A stretch of 64,000 bases of DNA from Pontibacterium sinense (GTDB lineage: Bacteria > Pseudomonadota > Gammaproteobacteria > Pseudomonadales > Balneatricaceae): the NCBI RefSeq assembly GCF_015209595.1, contig NZ_JADEYS010000010.1, positions 1-64,000 of the forward strand. The letters run 5' to 3'. Under the pieces are notes generated by a model. It was given only the letters and a program-made list of their open reading frames with translations. It made no database searches and had not been told where the DNA came from. The position numbers were made by a program, and so were the translations under genes. Shown here one piece after another: positions 487 through 20,860 of this stretch; the first letter of the stretch is position 1; the number at the start of each line of letters is the position of its first letter.

Positions 487-1593
487 CTAAGAAATATGCT
501 TAGCCAGAGTTGCTGCTGCAGCCTTAGCTTTCTGTGGCGTATACCCATACCCAAGGCTAATTCTCAATGTTTTTTCTCCCTGCTCGAAGCTTAACCCTAT
601 TGCACGAAGAACGTGGGATATATCAATAGCCATCGAAGAACAGGCTGAGCCTTGAGAAATAGCTAACTCTTCATCTCTCATAAGAGACTGAATGTCCAAT
701 TTTTGAATTGTTATATTTAGAATGTTTGGAATTACCGAAACCCCGCCATTGATTGTATAGCTACAATATTTGCCAAGTTCATTGAGAAAGGCAGATCTAA
801 CTTCACCAATTGCCACTTGATCAATATACAACCCACTTTGTGATACTGCCTCACCCATACCAATGATTAATGGGCTGGCAAGCGTCCCCCCCCTTAATCC
901 TAGCTCTTGGCCTGCCCCATGAATCACAGGGTCAACTTTTGTTTCTCTTAGGTCTCTAATATATAGGGCTCCGATCCCTTTTGGTCCGTAGCATTTGTGG
1001 GCCGAAACTGACATAAGGTCGATATACATATCATCAACATTTATGTCCAATTTGCAAAACGATTGTGCTGCGTCGGTATGAAACAAAACACCCTTATCAA
1101 AGCACAAAGCACCGATTTCACGAATCGGTTGTGTTGTACCTAATTCGTTATTTACATGGCTTATTGAAACTATGATAGTGTCATCTCGAATCACTTTAGA
1201 AATAGAGGCAGAAGTTATTTCACCGTACTTATTCGGCTCAACGTATGTAATCTCAAATCCTTCATTTTCAAGATAGTTACAAATTGAGAGTATGCACTTG
1301 TGCTCTATGGAGGAGGTGATAATGTGTCGTCCCTTATCCCTTCGAGCAAGCGCAATGCCTTTTAGCGCGAGATTATTGGATTCAGTGGCACCACTTGTAA
1401 AGACTATCTCACTAGGGTAGGCACCAATTTTATCGGCGATTATCTCCCTTGCGCGCTCAACAGCTTTCGCTGCTTTTCGCCCTTGATAGTGTGATGATGA
1501 AGGATTTCCAAAGTCTTCGCAAAACCAAGGAATCATAGTCTCCAGAATAGCCTTCGGGAGAGGTGTGGAAGCAGCATAGTCAAGGTAAATCAT
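487..1593 (-). CDS. dndA: Cysteine desulfurase, DndA/IscS type
   Basis: A 368-aa PLP enzyme of the NifS/IscS family that takes sulfur from L-cysteine as a persulfide. The PLP lysine is K200 in SVSAHKCYGPKG. The catalytic cysteine is C318 in the QGSACSS loop. The N-terminal YLDYAAST and the GATESNN cofactor loop are also typical. Length and motifs fit DndA, the sulfur donor of DNA phosphorothioation. It lies 60 bp downstream of, and on the same strand as, the phosphorothioation-associated methyltransferase, so the two are probably cotranscribed. The family also includes IscS-like enzymes for Fe-S clusters; the dnd assignment rests on the neighbour. No dndB, C, D or E gene is visible, and these may lie beyond the left edge. 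The start is the ATG at 1593; its ribosome-binding site is weak. Confidence 0.82.
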   Translation of the reverse strand: MIYLDYAASTPLPKAILETMIPWFCEDFGNPSSSHYQGRKAAKAVERAREIIADKIGAYPSEIVFTSGATESNNLALKGIALARRDKGRHIITSSIEHKCILSICNYLENEGFEITYVEPNKYGEITSASISKVIRDDTIIVSISHVNNELGTTQPIREIGALCFDKGVLFHTDAAQSFCKLDINVDDMYIDLMSVSAHKCYGPKGIGALYIRDLRETKVDPVIHGAGQELGLRGGTLASPLIIGMGEAVSQSGLYIDQVAIGEVRSAFLNELGKYCSYTINGGVSVIPNILNITIQKLDIQSLMRDEELAISQGSACSSMAIDISHVLRAIGLSFEQGEKTLRISLGYGYTPQKAKAAAATLAKHIS

Positions 1594-1653
1594 ATTGGGA
1601 GCTCTAGGCGCAAGTGTTAGGAGATGATACCTGGCTACAGGCGTAAGAAGAAC

Positions 1654-3678
1654 CTACGCAGTGTAAAAGCGGTAGCCTTTAATGATTTTGCCCTCTGATG
1701 CCAACAACCGATCTAGCTCCTCTCTATGCGGCCCATATTCTCTATCTGAATCCACGAATGAGAACGCCGTTAGCTTATGATCAAAAGAAACTTGTTTCTT
1801 ATAGTCAGGAAATGAAGGATCGATATAGATGCTTTTCCAATATAGAGAAGGAGAGGTGAAGCAACCAGTGTACTCAAAGAAGTCTACATCTTGCTGTCTA
1901 AGCTTTACCTTAATCCTCTCTTTCAGCAAGGGGAGAGGAGAAGAGTCAAATCCCTCGTAATTCATAAACGATACTTTGCCAGAAGTGATATGTATTTTCA
2001 CCAGATCGATATCTTCTAGGTCACCAAACAACTGTGCCGCACACCCAACATAAATTCTAAGAGCTGAAGGCAGTAAGCCCACGAACTTTTCGTGAACAAT
2101 TAACGAGTGTCCAGGGTTAAGGTGACTGGCAGGGAGTTCTTCATGTGCCTTATTACACAACCCGTTAATTAAGGAAACGTCGCCTAATGAAAAAAGAAGT
2201 TTTTTCGCTTCGTCTATCACACTTTTGTATTTATCAAAGAACACCCTTATATCTCGCTTCATTGCTTCGGGCATGTCACTGTAAGTCTTTCTCTTTCCAA
2301 ATAGCGCAAGCGCAAAGTATACAAGCAAATCCTCTTTTCTCATCTGCTGAGCCCGCGCGAAGTCAGATGTGTCTACACATTGCCCAAGAATTCTGAACGC
2401 TTTCTGATGCGAACCGAGTGCTTCTCGCAGCTCACTAGAGCATACGAACTCATCATTAGCAGGCAATCGCCCAAGTTCTAAGCACTTCATCCAAAACTTA
2501 TCTAAGAGGCTTTTATGCGTAACGAAAAGCATCTCTGCACTTACATTTTTCCGATCACTATCCCCAGTAAGCTGCTTCCAAAGCTGCCTACGCTTATGAC
2601 GATTTGAAAGAAACTCTTGCTCTTGTAGCTTGTCTTTAAAAACGTAAAAAATGCCTGGAGCCACTGCTATAGCATCATCTTCTAATGTGCGCTCAATGAA
2701 GTCTTGAAGCTCAGACTGCGAATAGTATCTCTGGAATGTGTTGCGAGAGGTAAGTATACCGTCCTTATAAGGAGCAAATTTAGAGATCGTCGCTTCACCA
2801 GCTATCATGGCTGATATGACAAGAAGCCTTTTTGACAAAGCGAACGCTCTTTGGATAGCCTCAATGCGCTCATCTATATTTTCGATTACATTGATAACAA
2901 ATCCCAAGTTTACAATATCAGACTCTAGTTGCTCGGTATCAGGTCTAAAGTTAGGATCCCAACCACCCACATTTAAACCATGGGCTTCAAGCTCTCTTAA
3001 ATCGTCACCTTTACCACACCCGTAATCAAAGACTGAATGATTGCCGTTTAGGTATCCGTGTTTAGCTAAGCACTTGAACGGCGAAGATAGCTCATATCGA
3101 GTAATTGCTGTGAGATGGCGGTCGATTTTATCTTCGCTAAGCTCATCGGAAGCTACATCCACTTGAACCAATCGACCGTTGACCAGGCTATATCCTTTTT
3201 GCTTAATCAGTCGCTCCCACGAATCTTTGAATCCAATCTTGAAAGGGGTTTCGTACAGCCCTGCTGCTTCACCTTCACGTGTAATTGAGCAAAACTCGTC
3301 GTAGCAATCATTCGTAGGTTCGATAAACAGTTCTTTACGATGAAGAATGGGTGGATTCTTCGAATCAGAATACGATGTTACTTTGGTAGTCAGCAGACCC
3401 AAATCGACCGCAATGCTTTGCTCAAGTGAGGGGTATGACTCTGAGTAGAATGCTGGGTAACTTAAATACGAAACTTTGAAGTCTCTTGCATGCAGCTTGG
3501 CGATATTCCAGTCATCATCGCTAACCTTGATGGCCTGAGCGACTATAGCAAGGAAGCCAAAAAGTGCAGGGGACTGCGACCGCAAGCTTTCTTTATGTAA
3601 GTACTTTGCATCAGGAAGCCTTTTCGAATAACGAATTTCCGAAACAAGATGCAAGTATGCCTCTCTATCCATAGCCAT
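1654..3678 (-). CDS. DNA phosphorothioation-associated putative methyltransferase
   Basis: A 674-aa protein matching the phosphorothioation-associated methyltransferase family that accompanies dnd gene clusters. A SAM-binding motif I (VFDYGCGKGDD, residues 217-227) sits in a Rossmann methyltransferase domain. It is preceded by the family hallmark DRHLTAITRYELSSP and followed by LGFVINVIENIDERIEA. The role within phosphorothioation systems is not settled; its own modification target is unknown. The N-terminal 180 and C-terminal 300 residues show no other motif I recognise. The ATG at 3678 is preceded by AGGA at suitable spacing; the second ATG two codons later is possible. The gene runs divergently from the helicase operon and upstream of dndA. 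Confidence 0.82.
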   Translation of the reverse strand: MAMDREAYLHLVSEIRYSKRLPDAKYLHKESLRSQSPALFGFLAIVAQAIKVSDDDWNIAKLHARDFKVSYLSYPAFYSESYPSLEQSIAVDLGLLTTKVTSYSDSKNPPILHRKELFIEPTNDCYDEFCSITREGEAAGLYETPFKIGFKDSWERLIKQKGYSLVNGRLVQVDVASDELSEDKIDRHLTAITRYELSSPFKCLAKHGYLNGNHSVFDYGCGKGDDLRELEAHGLNVGGWDPNFRPDTEQLESDIVNLGFVINVIENIDERIEAIQRAFALSKRLLVISAMIAGEATISKFAPYKDGILTSRNTFQRYYSQSELQDFIERTLEDDAIAVAPGIFYVFKDKLQEQEFLSNRHKRRQLWKQLTGDSDRKNVSAEMLFVTHKSLLDKFWMKCLELGRLPANDEFVCSSELREALGSHQKAFRILGQCVDTSDFARAQQMRKEDLLVYFALALFGKRKTYSDMPEAMKRDIRVFFDKYKSVIDEAKKLLFSLGDVSLINGLCNKAHEELPASHLNPGHSLIVHEKFVGLLPSALRIYVGCAAQLFGDLEDIDLVKIHITSGKVSFMNYEGFDSSPLPLLKERIKVKLRQQDVDFFEYTGCFTSPSLYWKSIYIDPSFPDYKKQVSFDHKLTAFSFVDSDREYGPHREELDRLLASEGKIIKGYRFYTA

Positions 3679-4247
3679 ATGTGGTCCTACTTTTGGATAT
3701 TAAACGAAATACAACGACCACGCCCAGAGCTACCTGAAGACACGGTCAGTAACAATCATGATCGCGCAGCAATGTGCTACTCACAAGCTAGTATAGGCAC
3801 GAGCTTATATAACCATAGGTGCAAATTAATTCAGAAACCAAGCACCATGTTGTCGTATTGCGAAGAACACGCACACTCTCAGCTGAGGCATGACCCATTT
3901 GAACACAACAATATGGAAGGAGCATGTGATGTGAACCACAAACACAGAGAAATCTTTTTAATTTCATGCAGTTATGCTATATAGGCAATCCGCATCGTAT
4001 TAAAGACGATACGAAGATGGTCTGCGACCTAGCTGAACACCTCAACAAGAAGCAGTGTCGCACTCACTTGATTTTTGCGTACCCAGAATAGGCGCCTAGC
4101 GGCTATCGCAAAAGTTGTTAGCTAGTTGTGCTTTAACAAGCAAAAGTGGTAGATTCTGGGACAAAAGGTCAGCTACGACTCAGGGACTAGAACATAAGGG
4201 AGCTATTCTAAATAGCGTGTTGCAAAGGTGCACGGACGGACCAAAAT
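3679..4247. other. Divergent intergenic region between the phosphorothioation and helicase operons
   Basis: About 570 bp without a convincing gene. It must carry the start signals for two divergent operons. One open frame from 3649 overlaps the methyltransferase start and has no family resemblance, so I treat it as chance. I could not pick out a consensus promoter or a clear palindromic operator. Confidence 0.5.
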
Positions 4248-5882
4248 ATGCTTAAAGAAATATTGTCGAACTTTTCTGAGGATGAGCTTCTAAGCTTCCT
4301 TCCTAAGGAAGCTGTTGAGTTTGCTTTATGTGTATCTGACACTGATGACGAAGGCGCCTTCAACAAGGAACAATTAGCTGAGATTGTAGCGAACACAAAG
4401 AAAGTCGACTTTGTGTTTAACGGAAAATTAAGAAATTTACTAATTGACCGTCTAAAGACCTCAATCTTCATTGATATTTTTCCAGAATTCAAATTAGTCG
4501 AAAATGAAGTAAAGCCAATTCATTATCAGGCAGCCATCAGCTGGGCTGATGAAAATATTCAGGAATTTTCAAAAAAAATAGAGCTTGAATCTATATATAA
4601 AAGCGAAACAAGCCTAAACACTTCGGTCGAGAGCATATCCAGTATTGAACCTGCCTATCCACTATATCCTTACCAGCAAGCTATATCTAAAAACGTTCTT
4701 GCTTCTCTTCAAAATAAAGAAAGAATCCTGATTCACCTCCCTACTGGTGCGGGAAAAACAAGAACAGCAATGAATATTGTATCCGAACACCTTAGAGAGT
4801 CTGAGAATAATGTTGTGTTGTGGTTGGCTGATAGGGAGGAACTTTGCACCCAAGCGTTTTCTGAATTTAAAAAAGCTTGGAGTTGCCTAGGCAATAGATC
4901 ATCAACAATATACGGCATATATTCAACTTCAGATGAAAGCTTAAGCGGCATTGATTCAGGCTTCGTTGTCGGCGGACTTCACAAGCTACTAAGCATAAAA
5001 AAGAACGACTCGAATAAATTAAAATTATTATACAGAGAGCTCTGCCGCTCAGTAACTTTAGTGGTTTTCGATGAAGCTCATAAAGCTATTGCGCCTAAGT
5101 TCAAGGAAGTAATTAATGACTTTGTTGATAGGGAGGACTTTTCTGCAAAGCTATTGGGCCTAACAGCCACACCTGGTCGTGTATATTCAGACGAACCAAT
5201 ATTTTCCGAAGAGGATAGGCAGCTTTCAGATTTCTTTTATAAAAACAAAGTATCAATGGAGATGCCTGGCTATATATCCCCTATAGATTATCTGGTTGAA
5301 AATGGGTATTTAGCAAAAGCCAATTTCAAGTCATTGAATTATGATGGGTCTGGAATATCCGCCTATGAGTTAAGAGACTCAGGCGGAGCAGAAACAGTGA
5401 CCGCTCTAGCAGGTAATAAGGAACGAAACAAAAGAATCATAAACAAAACTCTCGATGAGTGCGAGAGAGGTTCTCAAATAATCATCTTTGCGTGCACCGT
5501 TCAACATAGCATAAACCTTGCGATAGCTCTTGCTTGCGAAGGAATAAAAGCCGCATCTATAGATAGCAAAAATGATTCACCCGAAAGCAGAAGGGCGAAG
5601 ATCGAACAATATAAAAAATGTGAAATACAAGTCCTAGTTAATTTCAATGTTCTTACAGCAGGATTTGATGCCCCTAAAACCAATGTAACCATTATCGCCA
5701 AGCCCATGAACTCCTTGGTTCAATATCTCCAAATGGCAGGAAGAGCTATGAGAGGGATAAAGAGCGGGGGAAACAGGGAGTGCAACATATATACAGTCAT
5801 GGATGAAATTCCAGAGTTCCAAAGCATAAATATAGCATTTGAATATTGGAACAATATGTGGTCTGTATCAGAAAAGGACTAA
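4248..5882 (+). CDS. SF2 DEAH-box helicase of a MORC-type restriction cassette
   Basis: A 544-aa superfamily II helicase or translocase. Walker A is LPTGAGKT (about 164-171), motif II is DEAH (275-278), motif III is GLTATPGR, and motif VI is MAGRAMRG near the C-terminus. PYQQAI just before motif I resembles a Q motif. The first 130 residues are family-unknown and rich in acidic and hydrophobic residues. The stop codon is 2 bp from the next gene's ATG, so it is translationally coupled to the GHKL ATPase. Helicases of this kind occur with prokaryotic MORC ATPases and nucleases in restriction-like defence operons. The likely task is ATP-driven movement along or remodelling of invading DNA. Activity and substrate are inferred. 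Confidence 0.85.
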   Translation: MLKEILSNFSEDELLSFLPKEAVEFALCVSDTDDEGAFNKEQLAEIVANTKKVDFVFNGKLRNLLIDRLKTSIFIDIFPEFKLVENEVKPIHYQAAISWADENIQEFSKKIELESIYKSETSLNTSVESISSIEPAYPLYPYQQAISKNVLASLQNKERILIHLPTGAGKTRTAMNIVSEHLRESENNVVLWLADREELCTQAFSEFKKAWSCLGNRSSTIYGIYSTSDESLSGIDSGFVVGGLHKLLSIKKNDSNKLKLLYRELCRSVTLVVFDEAHKAIAPKFKEVINDFVDREDFSAKLLGLTATPGRVYSDEPIFSEEDRQLSDFFYKNKVSMEMPGYISPIDYLVENGYLAKANFKSLNYDGSGISAYELRDSGGAETVTALAGNKERNKRIINKTLDECERGSQIIIFACTVQHSINLAIALACEGIKAASIDSKNDSPESRRAKIEQYKKCEIQVLVNFNVLTAGFDAPKTNVTIIAKPMNSLVQYLQMAGRAMRGIKSGGNRECNIYTVMDEIPEFQSINIAFEYWNNMWSVSEKD

Positions 5883-5884
5883 CA

Positions 5885-7699
5885 ATGAGCAACAGATTTT
5901 TAAGTGCCTCTACTGTAATTGAGTCACTAAGAGACAACGGCTATAACAATACAGCTTATGCGCTTGCAGAACTAATTGATAACAGCCTACAAGCAGGTGC
6001 AAACAGGGTCGAAGTAGGATTTATTGAAGGACTATTAACCACTGGCGTTAGAAAGAATTATTCAGTATCTGAGATATCTCTTTGGGATAACGGGATTGGA
6101 ATGGATGCCGAGACCCTGCGCTTAGCAATGCAGTTCGGCGGAGGCACCCACCGCAATGACAGAGAAGGCATGGGTAAATTTGGAATGGGATTACCAAACT
6201 CATCAATATCCCAGTGCAAGAGGGTCGAGGTTTGGAGCTGGCAGAATAGCGATACCCCAAACTATACGTACCTTGATGTCGATGAGATGAAATCGGGAGA
6301 CTTGGAAGAGGTTCCTGAGCCCGTTAAGCGACAAATCCCTCCTGAGTATGAAAAAGCGTTTTTCACCAAAAGGCCGCCGTCAGGAACTCTTGTTGTTTGG
6401 TCTAAACTAGATCGATTAAGCTGGAAGACAGGAAAGTCGATATATCGTCACTGCGAGCACCTTGTAGGGCGTATGTATAGGAACTTCATTTGCAACGACA
6501 ATATAAAGATTGAAAGTATTGTTTATAGAAAAGAAAGCGAAGATCGCCTAGCAGTTTGGGAGCGTGAATTGTTTAAGGCAAATGATCCAATGTATCTCAA
6601 AAAGAACACTTCATTACCAGAGCTACCTGGGCATTACAAAAAAGAAGCGTTTTTTGAGCTAATGGACGAGGAGGTTGTATCTGTTGAGTATTTGGATGAC
6701 AAGGGCAATCCAAAGCGATGCGACGTAACTATAACCACCTCAATGGTTAAAAAAAATATTACGAAGAATATTTTAAAGGATACCGTAGGCAAACTTGGTA
6801 GCACAGAGTGGGGCAAGCATTGCAGCAAGAATGTGGGTGTCTCTATTGTACGAGCAAATCGAGAGCTAGTATTGCGTGATTCGTTCCTGACTTCTACTCT
6901 CCGAGAAAGTAAAGGTCGCTTTATAGGTATTGAAGTCTCATTTCCTCCATTATTAGATTCTGTATTTGGTGTAACCAACAATAAGCAAGACGCTGTAAAG
7001 CTGATCCCTTATGACATGAGATCAATTAGTTCTCAAGCAGGCTTTGATTCAGAACAGGAATACTTGAGAGATTTAGAAGATAATAGTGATTCACTACTTC
7101 AAGTTTTAAAAGTTGTGGCAGTAGTAAAAAAACAAATTTCAGCTTTAACCAAGTCTCTAGAAACAATCGATGTGGCGGGAAAGGCTACCAAGCAAGGGGC
7201 CAAGTCCGAAGGAGCTGCAGAAGGCGCTGCTGACAAAGCCACACAGGGTTCTGTCCAAAGGGAAAAACATGGTCACAAAACAGGGACTATCACTACTCCT
7301 CTGAAAAAGGCTGACGTGGTTGATCATCTCAAAAATGCTGGAGGGATGACCCAGAAAGAGGCGGAAGTTAAGGCAGAGCGACTAATACTAACAGGTAACC
7401 GCTTCCTAATAGAGGATGTTGCGAGAGATTCTGAAGCGTTTTTTGATGTCTCAACCAGCAAAGGATTGACTCTAGTTCTGTTAAATACTAACCACGCATT
7501 CTACAAGAAACTAGTTAGCAAGCTTGGCGACGAGGAATTAGAAGTGCTTCAAACCGCGATTGCAGGCTTTGCACGTGTAATGAACGAAACCACCGACGAA
7601 AAGCGATTAAAGTACCTAAATACAATACGTCGAGAGTGGGGTATTGTTATTAGTGAATTCTTAGACGATCCTTCTGACGACTGTTTCGACGATTTTTAA
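5885..7699 (+). CDS. MORC-like GHKL ATPase
   Basis: A 604-aa protein with an N-terminal GHKL (HSP90/MutL/histidine-kinase fold) ATPase. The N box is ELIDNSLQAGAN (E29, N33), the G1 box is DNGIGM (68-73), and a glycine-rich lid MGKFGMGLP sits at about 96-104. This arrangement matches prokaryotic MORC-family ATPases, described as parts of restriction-modification-like systems. An S5-like transducer probably follows (about 250-370). Residues 420-480 are low complexity (Ala, Gly, Lys), a likely linker to a C-terminal helical domain. I chose the ATG at 5885, with AAAAGGA upstream, rather than an earlier in-frame start inside the helicase gene. ATP-dependent clamp or loop formation on DNA is an inference from MORC biology. 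Confidence 0.82.
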   Translation: MSNRFLSASTVIESLRDNGYNNTAYALAELIDNSLQAGANRVEVGFIEGLLTTGVRKNYSVSEISLWDNGIGMDAETLRLAMQFGGGTHRNDREGMGKFGMGLPNSSISQCKRVEVWSWQNSDTPNYTYLDVDEMKSGDLEEVPEPVKRQIPPEYEKAFFTKRPPSGTLVVWSKLDRLSWKTGKSIYRHCEHLVGRMYRNFICNDNIKIESIVYRKESEDRLAVWERELFKANDPMYLKKNTSLPELPGHYKKEAFFELMDEEVVSVEYLDDKGNPKRCDVTITTSMVKKNITKNILKDTVGKLGSTEWGKHCSKNVGVSIVRANRELVLRDSFLTSTLRESKGRFIGIEVSFPPLLDSVFGVTNNKQDAVKLIPYDMRSISSQAGFDSEQEYLRDLEDNSDSLLQVLKVVAVVKKQISALTKSLETIDVAGKATKQGAKSEGAAEGAADKATQGSVQREKHGHKTGTITTPLKKADVVDHLKNAGGMTQKEAEVKAERLILTGNRFLIEDVARDSEAFFDVSTSKGLTLVLLNTNHAFYKKLVSKLGDEELEVLQTAIAGFARVMNETTDEKRLKYLNTIRREWGIVISEFLDDPSDDCFDDF

Positions 7700-7722
7700 A
7701 TACTGGGTTAAGAGGAGCGGTC

Positions 7723-8637
7723 ATGGGGTTAATTTCTAACGAGCAGTTAAAGCGTGAGCTGGATAAATACATCCCAGGCTGCTCCTCATTGAATGTCATC
7801 TCTGCATTTGTATCTATGCCTGCAGTAAAATGGCTGAATAGCATTGTTTGCGAAAACGGCACCAAAGTATGCATTGTTGGTAGATTTAGCCCAATGGATT
7901 TTGCTAATGGTGCCAGCGATTTCGAGTCTTTAAGACAATGCTTAAGGCAAGGACATACAGTCAAGGCTCTACCTAACCTACATGCGAAGATTTACCAAAT
8001 AGATTCCGAAATTATTTTTACAGGTAGCGCCAACATGACAGGGAGGGGACTTTCCTTAGTAGAAGCAAGCAATCTGGAGTCATGTGCTAGAGTCGAACCA
8101 ACAGGAGACACCAAACATTTCATATCAAGAATAGTTGATATTGCATCCATCATTACTCTTAATACATTGGATCAGATGGAGTTATATCTTGACAAGTCAT
8201 CCTCTGAAAATCAGAAAAAACCTCTAACAGATTGGCCTAAAGATATCTTACCTAAGCCCCAAAGCATCTTTGTTTCTGATTTCCCTTTATGCGAGCCTGG
8301 TCAAGCCAATGAGGTCTACCTAGCAAACCCCGCCTTAGAATTCGCCGCGATTGAATACAATCGATCAAACTCATACGTTGCAAAGAATCTGTTTAGAAGT
8401 TCGAAAGCATACACATGGCTCGTCTCTCACCTGCATGAAATAGAGAAAGACAGAGGCTTGGGATTTGGAAAAGTATCTAGCCTACTTCATAGAGATTTAG
8501 CTGATGACCCAGCTCCGTATCGCCAAGAGGTTAAAGAACTGGTAGCGAATTTATATAAGTATATCGAACTATATGCCAGTGAAGAGGTGCTGGTTCATGT
8601 TCCAGGCCGAAAAAGCCAGGTTGTGACACTTCTCTAA
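7723..8637 (+). CDS. PLD-fold nuclease of the MORC cassette
   Basis: A 304-aa protein with one phospholipase D HKD motif: HAKIYQID gives H87, K89 and D94, followed by FTGSANMTGRGL (S102, N104). Single-motif PLD proteins usually dimerise to form one active site, as in BfiI-type and Nuc-like nucleases. In a helicase plus GHKL operon the reasonable role is DNA cleavage. It starts 23 bp after the MORC-like gene with AGAGGAG as ribosome-binding site, so it is the third gene of the operon. The C-terminal half has no motif I recognise and could bind DNA or the partners. Confidence 0.8.
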   Translation: MGLISNEQLKRELDKYIPGCSSLNVISAFVSMPAVKWLNSIVCENGTKVCIVGRFSPMDFANGASDFESLRQCLRQGHTVKALPNLHAKIYQIDSEIIFTGSANMTGRGLSLVEASNLESCARVEPTGDTKHFISRIVDIASIITLNTLDQMELYLDKSSSENQKKPLTDWPKDILPKPQSIFVSDFPLCEPGQANEVYLANPALEFAAIEYNRSNSYVAKNLFRSSKAYTWLVSHLHEIEKDRGLGFGKVSSLLHRDLADDPAPYRQEVKELVANLYKYIELYASEEVLVHVPGRKSQVVTLL

Positions 8638-9021: not shown

Positions 9022-9378
9022 ATGTATATTTTGAAGTGGCTAACTTTGTTTTTCTCGCAATTAGTTGAATCGTGCCAGGGATGGTCTTTAAAGGACTTAC
9101 ATGTGACTCTAGATCAGATCAAGAAAGTGGTAGAGATGACAGCAGTAGCACTCGGTTTCGAAGTGCAGGTTGATATTCAAGAAATTGGTGACTCAAACGT
9201 TATCTACATGATCATAGATAGCAATCCTTTGCAGCCAGGAGAGACTGGATCTGTAACTGTAGAGACAGAAGGCTTGGAGTCAAAAGAGATTGTAGAGCGC
9301 TTGGTAACGGGCTTTGGGCTAGGTCCGAAACCTAGTAAAAATTTAGTAGAAGGTATTTTGTATGTTGATCTTTTTTAG
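9022..9378 (+). CDS. Hypothetical protein
   Basis: A 118-aa open frame I do not recognise. A possible hydrophobic N-terminus (YILKWLTLFFSQLV) is followed by an acidic, beta-rich region. No good ribosome-binding site precedes the first ATG. A later ATG at 9136 (MTAVALGF) has a purine-rich leader and may be the true start. Its stop TAG overlaps the GTG of the next small frame. It lies in the AT-rich mobile segment. Confidence 0.4.
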   Translation: MYILKWLTLFFSQLVESCQGWSLKDLHVTLDQIKKVVEMTAVALGFEVQVDIQEIGDSNVIYMIIDSNPLQPGETGSVTVETEGLESKEIVERLVTGFGLGPKPSKNLVEGILYVDLF

Positions 9379-9527
9379 TGTTAGCTGCTGTGCTTGTTGG
9401 ACTGTACATGCATACTAAAAAGCGCGTCACTTCGATGAATGAGTTCGATAAAGAAGATTTTAACTCGTTGATCAGAGATGCTAGTACTAGATATCAAGAG
9501 GCTTTTTCTTTGCTCTTTAATAAATAA
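9378..9527 (+). CDS. Small hypothetical protein, possibly membrane-anchored (49 aa)
   Basis: A GTG-started frame overlapping the previous stop (TAGTG) encodes 49 residues. It has a short hydrophobic N-terminus (LAAVLVGLYM), a basic patch (KKR) and an acidic, helical C-terminal half. The overlap suggests coupled translation. It is too short to identify and may not be expressed. Confidence 0.3.
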   Translation: MLAAVLVGLYMHTKKRVTSMNEFDKEDFNSLIRDASTRYQEAFSLLFNK

Positions 9528-9562
9528 TATTTGCAATATAAAAATAATAAAAATTTATATTT

Positions 9563-9876
9563 ATGATGGATTTAATAGTCGGCATTGACCCAGGGCTCAA
9601 GGGGGCTATTTCATTTATGAAAGCATCTACGGGCGAGATTCTTGATCTCGATGATATGCCAATAAAAAAGGTAGCTCTAATAAGTGGTAAGAAGAAAATC
9701 AAGGTGTGCGCTCTGCAGCTCGCTGCTTTGTTTTCAAAGTGGTTTGGTGAGTTTGGGGATGAGATGATGTATCGCTTATCCAGGTTGTTTTGGAGCGTGT
9801 CAATTTACAGAGTACCGAAGGTTATGCAGGTTCATTTGGAAACAAACAAAGATCAGCTGGATACACAGATGCATGA
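9563..9876 (+). pseudogene. Frameshifted, truncated RuvC-like Holliday junction resolvase
   Basis: The first frame begins MMDLIVGIDPGLKGAISF, the RuvC/RNase H-fold start with catalytic Asp in IDPG. It stays RuvC-like to about 9755 (SKWFGEFGD). A different frame, open from 9763, continues with LIQVVLERVNLQSTEGYAG, which carries the ERV catalytic Glu strand, and stops at 9874-9876. One frameshift near 9755-9768 therefore splits a phage-type RuvC-like gene. Even joined it gives only about 104 residues, short of the usual 150-170, so the 3' end is lost too. Such resolvases are typical of phages and mobile elements. Confidence 0.65.
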
Positions 9877-9918
9877 AGTAGCGTAAAGAAAAGCCTTGTT
9901 TTTCCAGGGATGTTATTA

Positions 9919-9952
9919 TTGACAATAAATACTAAAATACTTAAAAAGTATT
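9919..9952 (+). promoter_or_regulatory. Promoter with ATACT-N13-AGTAT palindrome
   Basis: TTGACA at 9919-9924 is followed after 17 bp by TAAAAA as a possible -10. AATACT (9928-9933) and AGTATT (9947-9952) form an inverted repeat with a 13-bp spacer over the promoter. The same spacing recurs upstream of two other genes in this element. A repressor site is the simplest reading. Confidence 0.45.
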
Positions 9953-10016
9953 CTTGAATAATAAATAAAAATATAATAATATGCGTTTATACTCAATAAT
10001 AAGAGAGACAAGAATA

Positions 10017-10508
10017 ATGAATGCATTTGAAAGATTGCTTGAAAAAAAGCTTGCAGAGATTGCTGAATACGAAAGAAAGATCAGTAAGGCGCAAGAAGAA
10101 GTTGCCATTTACAAAGAGCAGCAAGAAAAATATCAAGCTATTATTGAGATTCTGGTTTCAAAAGAAGAAGAACTAGAAAAAGTCATGACAGAACATTCTG
10201 AACAGAAAGAAAAAGAAGAATTACTGAAAGATAATATTAAAAATAGAATTGAGAAGTTTATTGCTTTTAGTGAAGTTGAAGATATGAAGAAACGCATGCT
10301 TAAGCTGATTAGAACAAAAAACTCTGTAAATAAATCTGAATTTCATGATATACAGAGAAAGATCGAAGCAGTTGTTGATAAAATGAAAGATGCTGGTTTT
10401 GTTAGTAGGGGTTTGTACTATTTAACTTCTGTAAATTACAACAGAGTAGATAAATTTGATCTATCAAAAGCAAGTAAAGAAGAACTTATTACATTGATTG
10501 AAGCGTAA
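10017..10508 (+). CDS. Coiled-coil hypothetical protein
   Basis: A 163-aa protein of unknown function. Residues 1-90 are strongly heptad-like and rich in Glu and Lys, predicting a long coiled coil. The C-terminal part resembles a small winged-helix-like fold (SEFHDIQRKIEAVVDKMKDAGFV), but this is only an impression. I chose the ATG at 10017, preceded by GAGAGAC, over the upstream in-frame ATG at 9981. A hairpin follows the stop. It belongs to the AT-rich mobile segment. Confidence 0.6.
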   Translation: MNAFERLLEKKLAEIAEYERKISKAQEEVAIYKEQQEKYQAIIEILVSKEEELEKVMTEHSEQKEKEELLKDNIKNRIEKFIAFSEVEDMKKRMLKLIRTKNSVNKSEFHDIQRKIEAVVDKMKDAGFVSRGLYYLTSVNYNRVDKFDLSKASKEELITLIEA

Positions 10509-10511
10509 TTA

Positions 10512-10536
10512 AGGCTCTCAAAAAGAGCCTAGTGTT
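10512..10536 (+). terminator. Hairpin after the coiled-coil gene
   Basis: AGGCTCT (10512-10518) and AGAGCCT (10524-10530) form a perfect 7-bp stem with a 5-nt loop. The T run behind it is poor (AGTGTTTT), so it is a likely but weak rho-independent terminator. Confidence 0.5.
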
Positions 10537-10641
10537 TTGCCAGAATTTTTTGTGCGGTAATCCTCCCATTTTAACTGACGTTAGAAGTAGAAGTTAAGAC
10601 AGTTGGTCATGCATAAAGTCTATTTGATAGCAAAAACAGAT

Positions 10642-10664
10642 ATACTATATTGATTAAAAAGTAT
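10642..10664 (+). promoter_or_regulatory. ATACT-N13-AGTAT palindrome
   Basis: ATACT (10642-10646) and AGTAT (10660-10664) are separated by 13 bp. The site lies about 90 bp upstream of the AT-hook protein gene and shares spacing and AT-rich spacer with the sites at 9928 and 11715. Confidence 0.4.
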
Positions 10665-10753
10665 GGTATTTTATAAAATTGTTTGACATATTGTGGTTAG
10701 GTTGCTACGGTTGTCATTATATATCGATACATAAGAATACATCGGAGAGGCGC

Positions 10754-11668
10754 ATGGCTGGCAAAAGAGGTGCAGGTCGTCCAGCTCTAGATCCACTTGA
10801 GAAGTTTCGTCGGAAAGTAAAGCGTGCTGAACTAAAGCTGCAGAGCATGAAGACACTAGCAGATCTAGAAACAGAATCTGGACCAATTGACTTGCCTAAA
10901 CGACGTGGCCGTGTGCCTATGAATGCACAGCAGAAGTTACAGAAAGAGCAGGTCAAGTTTAACAAGCTGATAGCTGAACTTCGAAAAAGGGAAGATGAAG
11001 CTGGCGAAGCACACTGTAATCTCGAAGCAGTAGAAGACCCAACGGTCAACGAGCTGGGTCTTTCAACAACGGGAAAGCCACGTTCTGACATTTTTACAAT
11101 TCTTGATCGCAAACTGAAAGCTGCGAAGAAGAAAGTAAAAGAAGCTGAAGAGATGGAAGAAGTTCGTAATGTAAAAGGCGGCATGGGTCGTCCAAAGATC
11201 ACAAAAGCTGAACGTGTTCGTCGTGCCAAAATTGAGGCATTTACTCTTGAAGCACGAATACTTGAAGAAGAGGGGAGACTTGACGAAATCGGCCTTCAGA
11301 AGCGTAAGCTGAAGAAACTGCGTGATGCTGCTCACGATGCACGTATGCGTATCAAAGCGTACACAAAAGAAGATTACGAGCTTTGCTTTGATGAAATTAA
11401 TCGAGCAAAACAACTTCTCGAAAGTATTGAAAACACAGTTAAAACAGAAGAGCTTCGTTTCAAGCATCTAGAAGATATGAAAGAAGGCCTGAATGAATAC
11501 GATGATCTAGAAAATGAATTAAGAGGCATTGCAGAGTATGATCCAAATCTTCCAGCGTGCGAGCACGCTCGAATGATTCAGGTACTGCGAAAGCAGAAAA
11601 TTATCAAAGATGAACTAAATCGCATTCGAAACGAGCTGAACGCAACTGTTCATATTGATGGTTTTTGA
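10754..11668 (+). CDS. AT-hook-like, coiled-coil DNA-binding protein candidate
   Basis: A 304-aa, very basic and helical protein. Four spaced motifs resemble AT hooks: GAGRP (6-10), RRGRVP (50-55), TGKPRS (106-111) and GMGRPK (143-148). Each is followed by a 30-45-residue charged helix, so the first half looks like repeats of hook plus helix. The second half (150-304) is coiled coil. AT-hook motifs bind the minor groove of AT-rich DNA, so a nucleoid-like or silencing role on this AT-rich element is plausible but inferred. The ATG at 10754 has GGAGAGG upstream and is preferred to the ATG at 10679. No family name was recognised. Confidence 0.6.
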   Translation: MAGKRGAGRPALDPLEKFRRKVKRAELKLQSMKTLADLETESGPIDLPKRRGRVPMNAQQKLQKEQVKFNKLIAELRKREDEAGEAHCNLEAVEDPTVNELGLSTTGKPRSDIFTILDRKLKAAKKKVKEAEEMEEVRNVKGGMGRPKITKAERVRRAKIEAFTLEARILEEEGRLDEIGLQKRKLKKLRDAAHDARMRIKAYTKEDYELCFDEINRAKQLLESIENTVKTEELRFKHLEDMKEGLNEYDDLENELRGIAEYDPNLPACEHARMIQVLRKQKIIKDELNRIRNELNATVHIDGF

Positions 11669-19453: not shown

Positions 19454-20860
19454 ATGGCGAAGTCTGTTGTTTTTAATGGTTTTGAAGGTTTTGCTGAACC
19501 AGGGGTTGAAGTTCGTGGCTTATCTATTCGAATCTACTTTAATTATCGTAGCAAACAAGAGAAGCCAAGATTTTGTTCGATTGAAAATGTCCATTCAGTA
19601 AAGCAATTTCAGGATCTGCTTGATGAAGCAAGCGATATTCAAAGATTGCTTGATCGAATGTCAAAGCGCGGAACGCTGACAGATGAAATCTACGCAACCC
19701 ATCTTCCAGAGTCTGAACTTGCAAAAAATAGGGGTGGAAGCAGAGCAACAGTAAACTTTAAACAACTGGCTCAGAGATACCTCGATGACCAGGAACCGCT
19801 CGTGCGCAGGGGAGATATCTCTGGCGGCACAGTAGAGTCTCGCAGAAAAGCTCTCATAACATCACAACACATGAACAAGCTGTCAGCGATGCGTGATATG
19901 CCGAAGAATCATAAGCACACGTTACTGTATCAGCAAGGGCTCGGTGATATGCGAATTGGTGATATCACTTTCGATGTGCTTCGCAAGCTGCAGACATATT
20001 TGTATGACTATGCTCCAAGAGAGACTGGTAAGTTCGGATACTCTGAAAAATATGTGAATAACATATTGGATGCCATTCGGCAGGTATTCAAATACGCTCT
20101 GCAGCATCAAATAGTAGAGAAAGATCCATCGGAAAACATAAAAACTCTTCGCGTACCCACAAAAAACAAGCTTGAAGAGCAAATGTTTTTCGACTTCGAA
20201 GAGCAAGAAGCCATCTATCAAGCTTGCATAGATGACAATAAGCCATGCCTTGCGGAAGCATTTAAGTTCGGATGCTGGACAGGACTTCGAAAAGAAGAAC
20301 TGCTTGCATTGGCTTGGGAAGACATCAATTTGGAAGCAAATTCGGTGACTGTAACAAGGGCGTACACAAGAGAAGATGAATTTCATCATCCAAAAACCAA
20401 AACCTCTTATCGATCAATTGAACTGCTTGATGATGCTCGTGACGCACTAGATAGAGCGTATCAACACACTAGTGAAGCAGAGCCAAAAACATTCATGGTA
20501 AAGCGGCCAGAACAGAACGGTAGAGTTCCAGAAGAGCTGCGTTTGGTGTTTCAAAACTTTGCCAAAGGTGGGCCAATACCCCGTGCTTGGAATGAAGGAT
20601 CGCTTCGAAAGGCTTGGAATAGAATAAAGAAGCTTTCTGGCGTAGATCTGCCATTCAAATACGTTCGGCACACGTATGGTTCTATGCGAATGTCGGCAGG
20701 AGGCATGGAAGAGGAAGTAGCTGATGAGATGGGGCACAATGGCACAACGATGGTTCATCGACACTACACAGTGCAGAGCAATAAGTTCAACAAGCAGATG
20801 ATCGCAAGCAAGAACAAGGCTATGAGCAAACTGAAGGAAGAGCTTGCTGAACTTGAATGA
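19454..20860 (+). CDS. int: Tyrosine integrase of the island
   Basis: A 468-aa site-specific tyrosine recombinase. Catalytic signatures are WTGLRKEELLAL (Arg I), KTKTSYRSIEL (Lys), FKYVRHTYGSM (box II Arg), EMGHNGTTMVHRHYTVQ (His and nucleophile Tyr). The N-terminal half contains SAM-like and arm-binding regions. It lies 150 bp from a tRNA-Pro 3' fragment, the expected attachment site, and reads toward it. It probably integrates and excises the island. It follows the partition pair by 16 bp and may be cotranscribed. Confidence 0.9.
   Translation: MAKSVVFNGFEGFAEPGVEVRGLSIRIYFNYRSKQEKPRFCSIENVHSVKQFQDLLDEASDIQRLLDRMSKRGTLTDEIYATHLPESELAKNRGGSRATVNFKQLAQRYLDDQEPLVRRGDISGGTVESRRKALITSQHMNKLSAMRDMPKNHKHTLLYQQGLGDMRIGDITFDVLRKLQTYLYDYAPRETGKFGYSEKYVNNILDAIRQVFKYALQHQIVEKDPSENIKTLRVPTKNKLEEQMFFDFEEQEAIYQACIDDNKPCLAEAFKFGCWTGLRKEELLALAWEDINLEANSVTVTRAYTREDEFHHPKTKTSYRSIELLDDARDALDRAYQHTSEAEPKTFMVKRPEQNGRVPEELRLVFQNFAKGGPIPRAWNEGSLRKAWNRIKKLSGVDLPFKYVRHTYGSMRMSAGGMEEEVADEMGHNGTTMVHRHYTVQSNKFNKQMIASKNKAMSKLKEELAELE

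Follow-up and report, generated by a model that had tools for sequence, protein, structure and literature searches.

A stretch of Pontibacterium sinense DNA of 64,000 nucleotides (the window) carries near its left end three adjacent genes, for an SF2 DEAH helicase, a MORC-type GHKL ATPase and a PLD/HKD nuclease (together, the trio), that probably form the restriction arm of a single phosphorothioation (PT) defence system, one that an IS256 insertion splits in the assembly and in which, on the preferred reading, PT-marked self DNA would be spared. Because the three genes are kept together with Ssp systems in distantly related bacteria, the trio is very probably the DNA-cutting arm of such systems, and our best reading of the sequences is a restriction module, ATP-dependent and under the control of ssDNA phosphorothioation, that is distinct from SspE, SspFGH and PbeABCD.

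An Ssp locus probably divided by an insertion sequence

The preliminary description of this DNA reported five open reading frames (ORFs), with a tight helicase-GHKL-PLD operon facing a desulfurase and a phosphorothioation-associated methyltransferase, and all five were found in place. On the minus strand lie sspA (487–1593), encoding a cysteine desulfurase, the sulfur donor, and a gene (1654–3678) for the putative phosphorothioation-associated methyltransferase TIGR04096, an assignment borne out by a score of 675 bits against a cut-off of 150. The trio runs on the plus strand, with the helicase/translocase at 4248–5882 (Pfam ResIII/DEAD, with 3.9e-26 for ResIII, and Helicase_C), the GHKL ATPase at 5885–7699 (HATPase_c_3, 9.7e-20) and the PLD/HKD nuclease at 7723–8637 (PLDc_2). 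Its tight spacing was confirmed, the GHKL gene starting two bases past the helicase stop at the likelier ATG 5885 (a longer reading from TTG 5846 is possible) and the PLD gene 23 bp past the GHKL stop. The two divergent operons are separated by 570 bp between the TIGR04096 and helicase genes, an interval in which a promoter and terminator scan gave no strong signal.

The desulfurase had been called DndA-type. It is a desulfurase, but the Dnd type did not hold, as the protein scores higher against the PADLOC profile for SspA (464 bits) than against that for DndA (442 bits) and falls below the NCBI DndA cut-off (386.7 against 480). A genome-wide search for DndC at E ≤ 0.001 gave no match in this genome, and the PADLOC profiles for Dnd C, D, E, F, G and H matched none of the window proteins scanned. 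Position 1 of the window is the first base of its contig, C2, and genes further left lie outside it; a PAPS-reductase search of the genome led to the right end of another contig, C50, where a 290-aa protein, SspD, is preceded by two large ORFs that are SspB and SspC. The end of C50 holds an intact sspBCD (profile scores of 311, 1048 and 431 bits for SspB, SspC and SspD), which completes the SspABCD gene set: SspA on C2, and on C50 SspB (DUF4007), the SspC ATPase and the PAPS-reductase-like SspD. A phosphorothioation system is thus present as described, and the leftward look for dnd genes suggested for it did end in phosphorothioation genes, although these are sspBCD and not dnd. We rejected the Dnd assignment, since DndC is absent from the genome and sspBCD was found on C50; judged by its gene content, the system is of the Ssp type (single-strand phosphorothioation), and the Dnd label is wrong.

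From sspD to the end of C50 there are 158 bp, and from the start of C2 to the end of sspA 486 bp. The two contigs share no direct sequence overlap, and IS256 ends account for the gap: positions 1–77 of the window (no strand assigned) comprise the end of a transposase ORF and a terminal repeat, identified by BLASTN to IS256-family elements, and the last ~70 bp of C50 (about 19909–19995 of locus L024) match the opposite end of the same IS type. The 8 bp outside the IS ends are identical on C50 and C2 (TGGAGCTG). Contig C11 holds an intact relative of the element, which is built in the same way and flanked by the 8-bp duplication GCTTTCTG. The IS ends and duplications were read by eye, and the C50–C2 junction is placed by the IS ends and the shared 8 bp. 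The element is multicopy in this genome and also breaks other contigs of the assembly, at whose ends it lies. In locus L042, which has no IS, the order is sspB> sspC> sspD> <sspA <TIGR04096. Given opposite ends of one IS type and the same 8-bp duplication, C50 and C2 very probably adjoined until the IS inserted between sspD and sspA, which are convergent. The reconstructed locus therefore reads sspB> sspC> sspD> (IS) <sspA <methyltransferase, and then, divergently, helicase> MORC> PLD>.

The proteins of the trio

The helicase has the motifs of an SF2 DEAH protein (Walker A at G167–T171, DEAH at 275–278, and motif VI), which are more than 90% conserved among homologues, across phyla. By sequence, its nearest solved relatives in the PDB are RadD, a DNA repair helicase, and the helicase part of SauUSI. 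That RadD is the closest solved helicase would suit a role of the trio in the repair or maintenance of PT-containing DNA, with a RadD-like helicase, MORC compaction and the PLD protein as processing nuclease; we consider this highly unlikely, because the exchange of the slot with the phage-restricting SspFGH, described below, and the patchy, plasmid- and island-borne distribution of the trio both look like defence. A variant of the trio, with a degenerate helicase and an unrelated third protein without Pfam match, occurs in L012 (5705–10107), L018 (7436–11886) and L076; the DEAH motif is lost from the helicase in L012 and L018, and the L012 variant is adjoined by a complete SspFGH, a separate module.

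The GHKL protein shows the Bergerat-fold motifs (E29, D32, N33, D68-x-G-x-G72 and G95-x-G97-x-F-G-M-G102), and MORC is its nearest relative. Residues E29, D32, N33, D68, G72, G97, F99, G100, G102 and K367 are conserved across phyla; the best PDB match by sequence is human MORC2 (E=4e-10), and the predicted model (pLDDT 90) is nearest in fold to Hsp90, MORC2, SMCHD1 and MutL. In some loci the gene lacks the trio helicase and lies beside genes of PbeABCD type (L046, L050, L051) or an SspE-like protein (L099), and the GHKL protein may therefore be a shared accessory. Its neighbours in L046 (5242–11776) are PbeA/PbeC-type genes and a small ORF of DndE size, and in L050 and L051 they are SspABCD and Pbe-type genes.

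The third protein combines a nuclease domain (about 1–160) with a helical C-terminal domain (about 195–300). It carries the PLD/HKD signature, H-x-K-(x)4-D plus G-S-x-N, as HAKIYQID (87–94) and GSAN (101–104), and residues H87, K89, S102, N104, N117 and E119 are invariant among homologues. By sequence its nearest solved relatives are phospholipase D, SauUSI and the nuclease NucT, and the predicted model (pLDDT 93) is nearest in fold to SauUSI, BfiI, Nuc and NgoAVII R. A phospholipase function was set aside because the closest folds are nucleases.

Linkage of the trio to Ssp systems

Plasmid homologues with the trio adjoin DUF4007, SspC-like and PAPS-reductase genes, their Ssp identity being given by PADLOC. 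A scan with one genome per species, which favours close relatives, kept 79 GHKL loci, and 46 top-matching loci have complete flanks, that is, at least 9 kb on both sides of the GHKL gene. At least two of SspB, SspC and SspD lie within 10 kb in 41 of these 46 loci, in proteobacteria, cyanobacteria, bacteroidetes, firmicutes, actinobacteria and others; a trio found mostly without phosphorothioation genes, the outcome that the preliminary description held to speak against a connection, was looked for and not seen. The helicase gene is immediately upstream of the GHKL gene in 40 of the 46 loci, and the PLD gene is next to it downstream in 31. The nuclease is the least conserved member, and where it was not detected beside the GHKL gene (15 of 46) it is missing, moved or too divergent.

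The five exceptions are varied. L046 is the PbeABCD-type cluster carrying the GHKL gene, in L098 SspD and SspA lie close by, together with an SspE-like gene, and in L092 and L049 a genome-wide search located SspBCD elsewhere in the genome, on another contig than the GHKL gene. The fifth, L079, is a metagenome bin with helicase and GHKL genes and no SspD detected; no recognised SspD was found in the incomplete metagenome bins L064, L069, L079 and L082.

Since the one-per-species scan favours close relatives, we used as a check an even sample of 398 genomes of the phylum, searched with the GHKL profile at E ≤ 1e-30. The GHKL gene occurred in five genomes other than our own, all five with a strong SspD 2–8 kb away, as compared with a strong SspD in 5 of the 392 remaining genomes (Fisher p = 3.1e-9). 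G073 and G050, GHKL-bearing relatives found earlier, both have SspABCD, and four of five GHKL matches in a viral collection are Ssp-linked, the fifth locus being incomplete. These figures bear on whether the trio is a defence system independent of the Ssp genes and simply housed in one island with them, a reading that the preliminary description had also considered. Defence genes generally cluster, and the split contigs of L092 and L049, together with the L079 locus where no Ssp gene was detected, would fit such independence; however, the 5/5 against 5/392 distribution of SspD, the 41 linked loci of 46 in many phyla, and the presence of SspBCD in the genome even in the displaced cases already largely contradict it, and we regard it as hardly credible.

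Among 19 Ssp loci of other genomes in the two even samples, small numbers for a partner count, the trio is present in six and SspFGH, by profile, in five; three have an FtsK/DndH-like large protein or a weak FGH-like set, PbeA/PbeC, SspE and, adjoining SspD, a different GHKL protein (HATPase_c plus HEF_HK) are found once each, and two have an unassigned partner. Divergent Ssp systems, mostly of Firmicutes (L073, L101, L103, L187), were also seen, whose SspD scores only ~40 bits against the SspD profile, so that profile surveys probably undercount systems of this type.

A 2021 survey found that 83.9% of 2,678 sspBCD loci are without SspE or SspFGH, and raised the question whether they have unknown restriction partners or use their marks for another purpose (PMC8092258). 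Carried by 6 of the 19 sampled Ssp systems, the trio offers a testable answer for part of these 'orphan' loci, and our best reading is that it fills part of the reported gap. We lean slightly towards the wider claim that the trio is an undescribed and common kind of PT-governed restriction module, to which a large share of orphan sspBCD would belong, and that MORC-type GHKL proteins recur in PT defence. If this is true, MORC-type GHKL proteins would also sit on Pbe-type and SspE-like partners, as bacterial relatives of eukaryotic MORCs acting on a backbone mark; a MORC-type ATPase, whose bacterial function is little understood, would have its place in a simple system of three genes whose DNA mark is defined.

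Exchange of partners on related SspC

In a tree of SspC, which oversamples trio loci because these were found through the GHKL gene, trio loci are scattered among FGH, SspE and Pbe loci. SspC of the FGH locus L149 is 82% identical to SspC of the trio loci L067, L070 and L058, and that of L132 (FGH) is 68% identical to that of L127 (trio); L051, with Pbe-type genes plus GHKL, and the trio locus L045 have SspC proteins 89% identical. The trio and SspFGH replace each other beside closely related SspC, in several SspC lineages. Protein distances are tightly correlated between helicase and GHKL ATPase (r=0.94) and within SspBCD (0.79–0.92), as against 0.39–0.54 between the trio and the Ssp block, a moderate correlation indicating frequent exchange. 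Such a pattern is expected of an effector that can be swapped on a common modification platform, and together with the conserved linkage it strongly supports the proposal, made in the preliminary description, that the trio is a different restriction partner.

Comparison with known systems

A 2025 review recognises only DndFGH/SspFGH, SspE and PbeABCD as restriction branches (PMC12707154). The open-access papers searched do not describe the trio with PT genes; within that literature, neither GHKL in combination with SspBCD nor DUF4007 led to an account of it, and PADLOC-DB 2023, NCBIfam and Pfam hold no model of it as a PT partner.

SspFGH of Vibrio anguillarum FF-93 (PMC8092258) resembles the trio in being a three-gene partner beside sspBCD, at the same position on related SspC platforms. 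It differs in domains, with a Walker A in SspF, an FtsK/SpoIIIE-like SspH, and no SF2 helicase, MORC or PLD; identity with it was rejected, as no domains are shared. The PADLOC profiles for SspF, SspG and SspH gave no match on the trio (for the helicase, among the best 25 of 39 matches), nor did separate profiles built from an FGH neighbour.

PbeABCD, the CxC-ABC/DndE system, likewise uses an HKD nuclease and an SF2 helicase as its cutting engine and is PT-linked (PMC10853773). PbeA, however, is defined as a fusion of HKD and SF2 helicase, whose partners are an ABC ATPase, a homologue of DndE and a small protein, in a paper with no mention of MORC or GHKL (Rakesh et al. 2024, PMC10853773), whereas the trio has separate PLD and helicase genes and a MORC-type GHKL ATPase, with no ABC ATPase or DndE. 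The window proteins scanned include no HKD-SF2 PbeA, CxC-ABC PbeC or DndE-like PbeD.

SauUSI (PDB 7clg) is a restriction enzyme of PLD-plus-SF2 build, a translocase that shreds DNA (PMC7913695), and the profiles of the trio PLD protein and helicase match its respective parts. Between them, the trio helicase and nuclease thus make up a two-piece engine like that of SauUSI or PbeA, to which a MORC clamp would be added. SauUSI differs in that one polypeptide contains everything, including an SRA-type reader of modified cytosine, and in having neither GHKL nor a link to PT. The prokaryotic MORC operons described by Iyer et al. 2008 (PMC2292703) have a MORC-type GHKL beside an SF2 helicase, sometimes with an HKD domain, but involve DNA methylases, REase-fold nucleases and an HKD fused to the helicase, with no reported PT link. 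SspE (DUF262-DUF1524) and DndFGH are likewise effector arms of PT systems, with unrelated domains and, in SspE, PT sensing; a Pfam search found neither DUF262 (GmrSD_N) nor DUF1524 (GmrSD_C) among the window proteins scanned. MZA shares the GHKL domain (MzaB) and DISARM the PLD domain (DrmC), and both differ from the trio in gene set.

We consider it very unlikely that the trio is a divergent form of one of these named partners (SspFGH, PbeABCD, DISARM, MZA or a part of BREX). There are resemblances: the helicase core aligns with the PbeA motor (E=3.8e-14), and weak scores link the helicase to PbeA and TIGR04095, the PLD protein to DrmC and the GHKL protein to MzaB. These scores nevertheless stand far under curated cut-offs (55 against 600 bits for TIGR04095, 17.7 against 133 for DrmC and 73.6 against 850 for MzaB), SspF, SspG and SspH have no homology to the trio, with SspFGH separate beside the trio variant in L012, and the ABC ATPase and DndE of Pbe are missing.

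Proposed mechanism

SspABCD, with sspA on C2 and sspBCD on C50, would place single-strand PT marks on host DNA. The SF2 motor would load on DNA and translocate, while the dimeric MORC-type GHKL ATPase, a clamp in its better-known relatives, would close on the DNA as an ATP-gated clamp coupling DNA status to the motor; the HKD nuclease would cut, two subunits forming one active site, and PT on self DNA would govern the outcome. Since none of the three trio proteins showed a recognised domain for reading PT, gating of cleavage by PT is proposed solely from their linkage to Ssp genes. The mark could either protect or activate, and PT effectors of each mode are known. We somewhat favour protection, in a restriction-modification-like logic by which PT-marked self DNA would be spared and unmarked phage DNA cut, as by SspFGH and DndFGH.

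Seven Nostocales loci (L062, L063, L087–L090, L098) show a series of decay, although, being related, few and partly from metagenome assemblies, they are a weak natural experiment. The PLD gene is absent in all seven, the helicase N-terminus including Walker A is lost in five, and SspD is lost or truncated in four. These four (L062, L063, L087, L089) also have a helicase without Walker A and no PLD gene, and L088, L090 and L098 keep SspD with the PLD gene already lost; dead modification with a live trio occurs in none of the seven. Cutting was lost before or with modification, as expected if unprotected cutting is toxic.

Proteins of SspE architecture (DUF262+DUF1524) lie between SspD and the trio genes or GHKL gene in L098 (6061–8355) and L099 (7683–9998). 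An ORF upstream of the helicase in cyanobacterial loci (for example L014 and L017) bears the NCBI RefSeq name DndB, which we did not adopt, its L098 counterpart being the SspE-like DUF262+DUF1524 protein.

The main alternative, possible though not probable, is that the trio is a PT-activated effector, switched on by PT on DNA and silent rather than toxic without sspBCD. SspE is PT-activated (PMC9646914, PMC8092258) and DndI has also been described so, the cyanobacterial trio loci and L099 also carry an SspE-architecture protein, and modified DNA is what activates SauUSI, the closest split relative (PMC7913695); activation moreover predicts strict SspBCD dependence equally well. On the other hand, the clearest swap of the trio is with SspFGH, a cutter of unmarked DNA, and in Nostoc the loss of cutting parts before or with the modification gene fits protection better, if weakly.

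Accessory and neighbouring genes

TIGR04096 recurs at many Ssp loci whatever their partner (for example L026, L040, L130, L134 and L157) and is an accessory gene of Ssp loci. By eye it has no DPPY-type motif of base N-methyltransferases, and a search of solved structures found no relative. Downstream of the PLD gene, window positions 9022–11668 hold four ORFs (118, 107, 175 and 329 aa) without Pfam matches, one of them coiled-coil-like. In L151 (10602–14879), directly downstream of SspD, the different GHKL protein (HATPase_c plus HEF_HK, 787 aa) is accompanied by a 638-aa protein, response-regulator-like by eye, and the pair is a possible further Ssp partner. Upstream of sspB on C50 (L024, 11564–13957) lies the gene for a 797-aa protein with no Pfam match and weak DinG/BrxHI-like PADLOC matches only, which is possibly a further defence gene.
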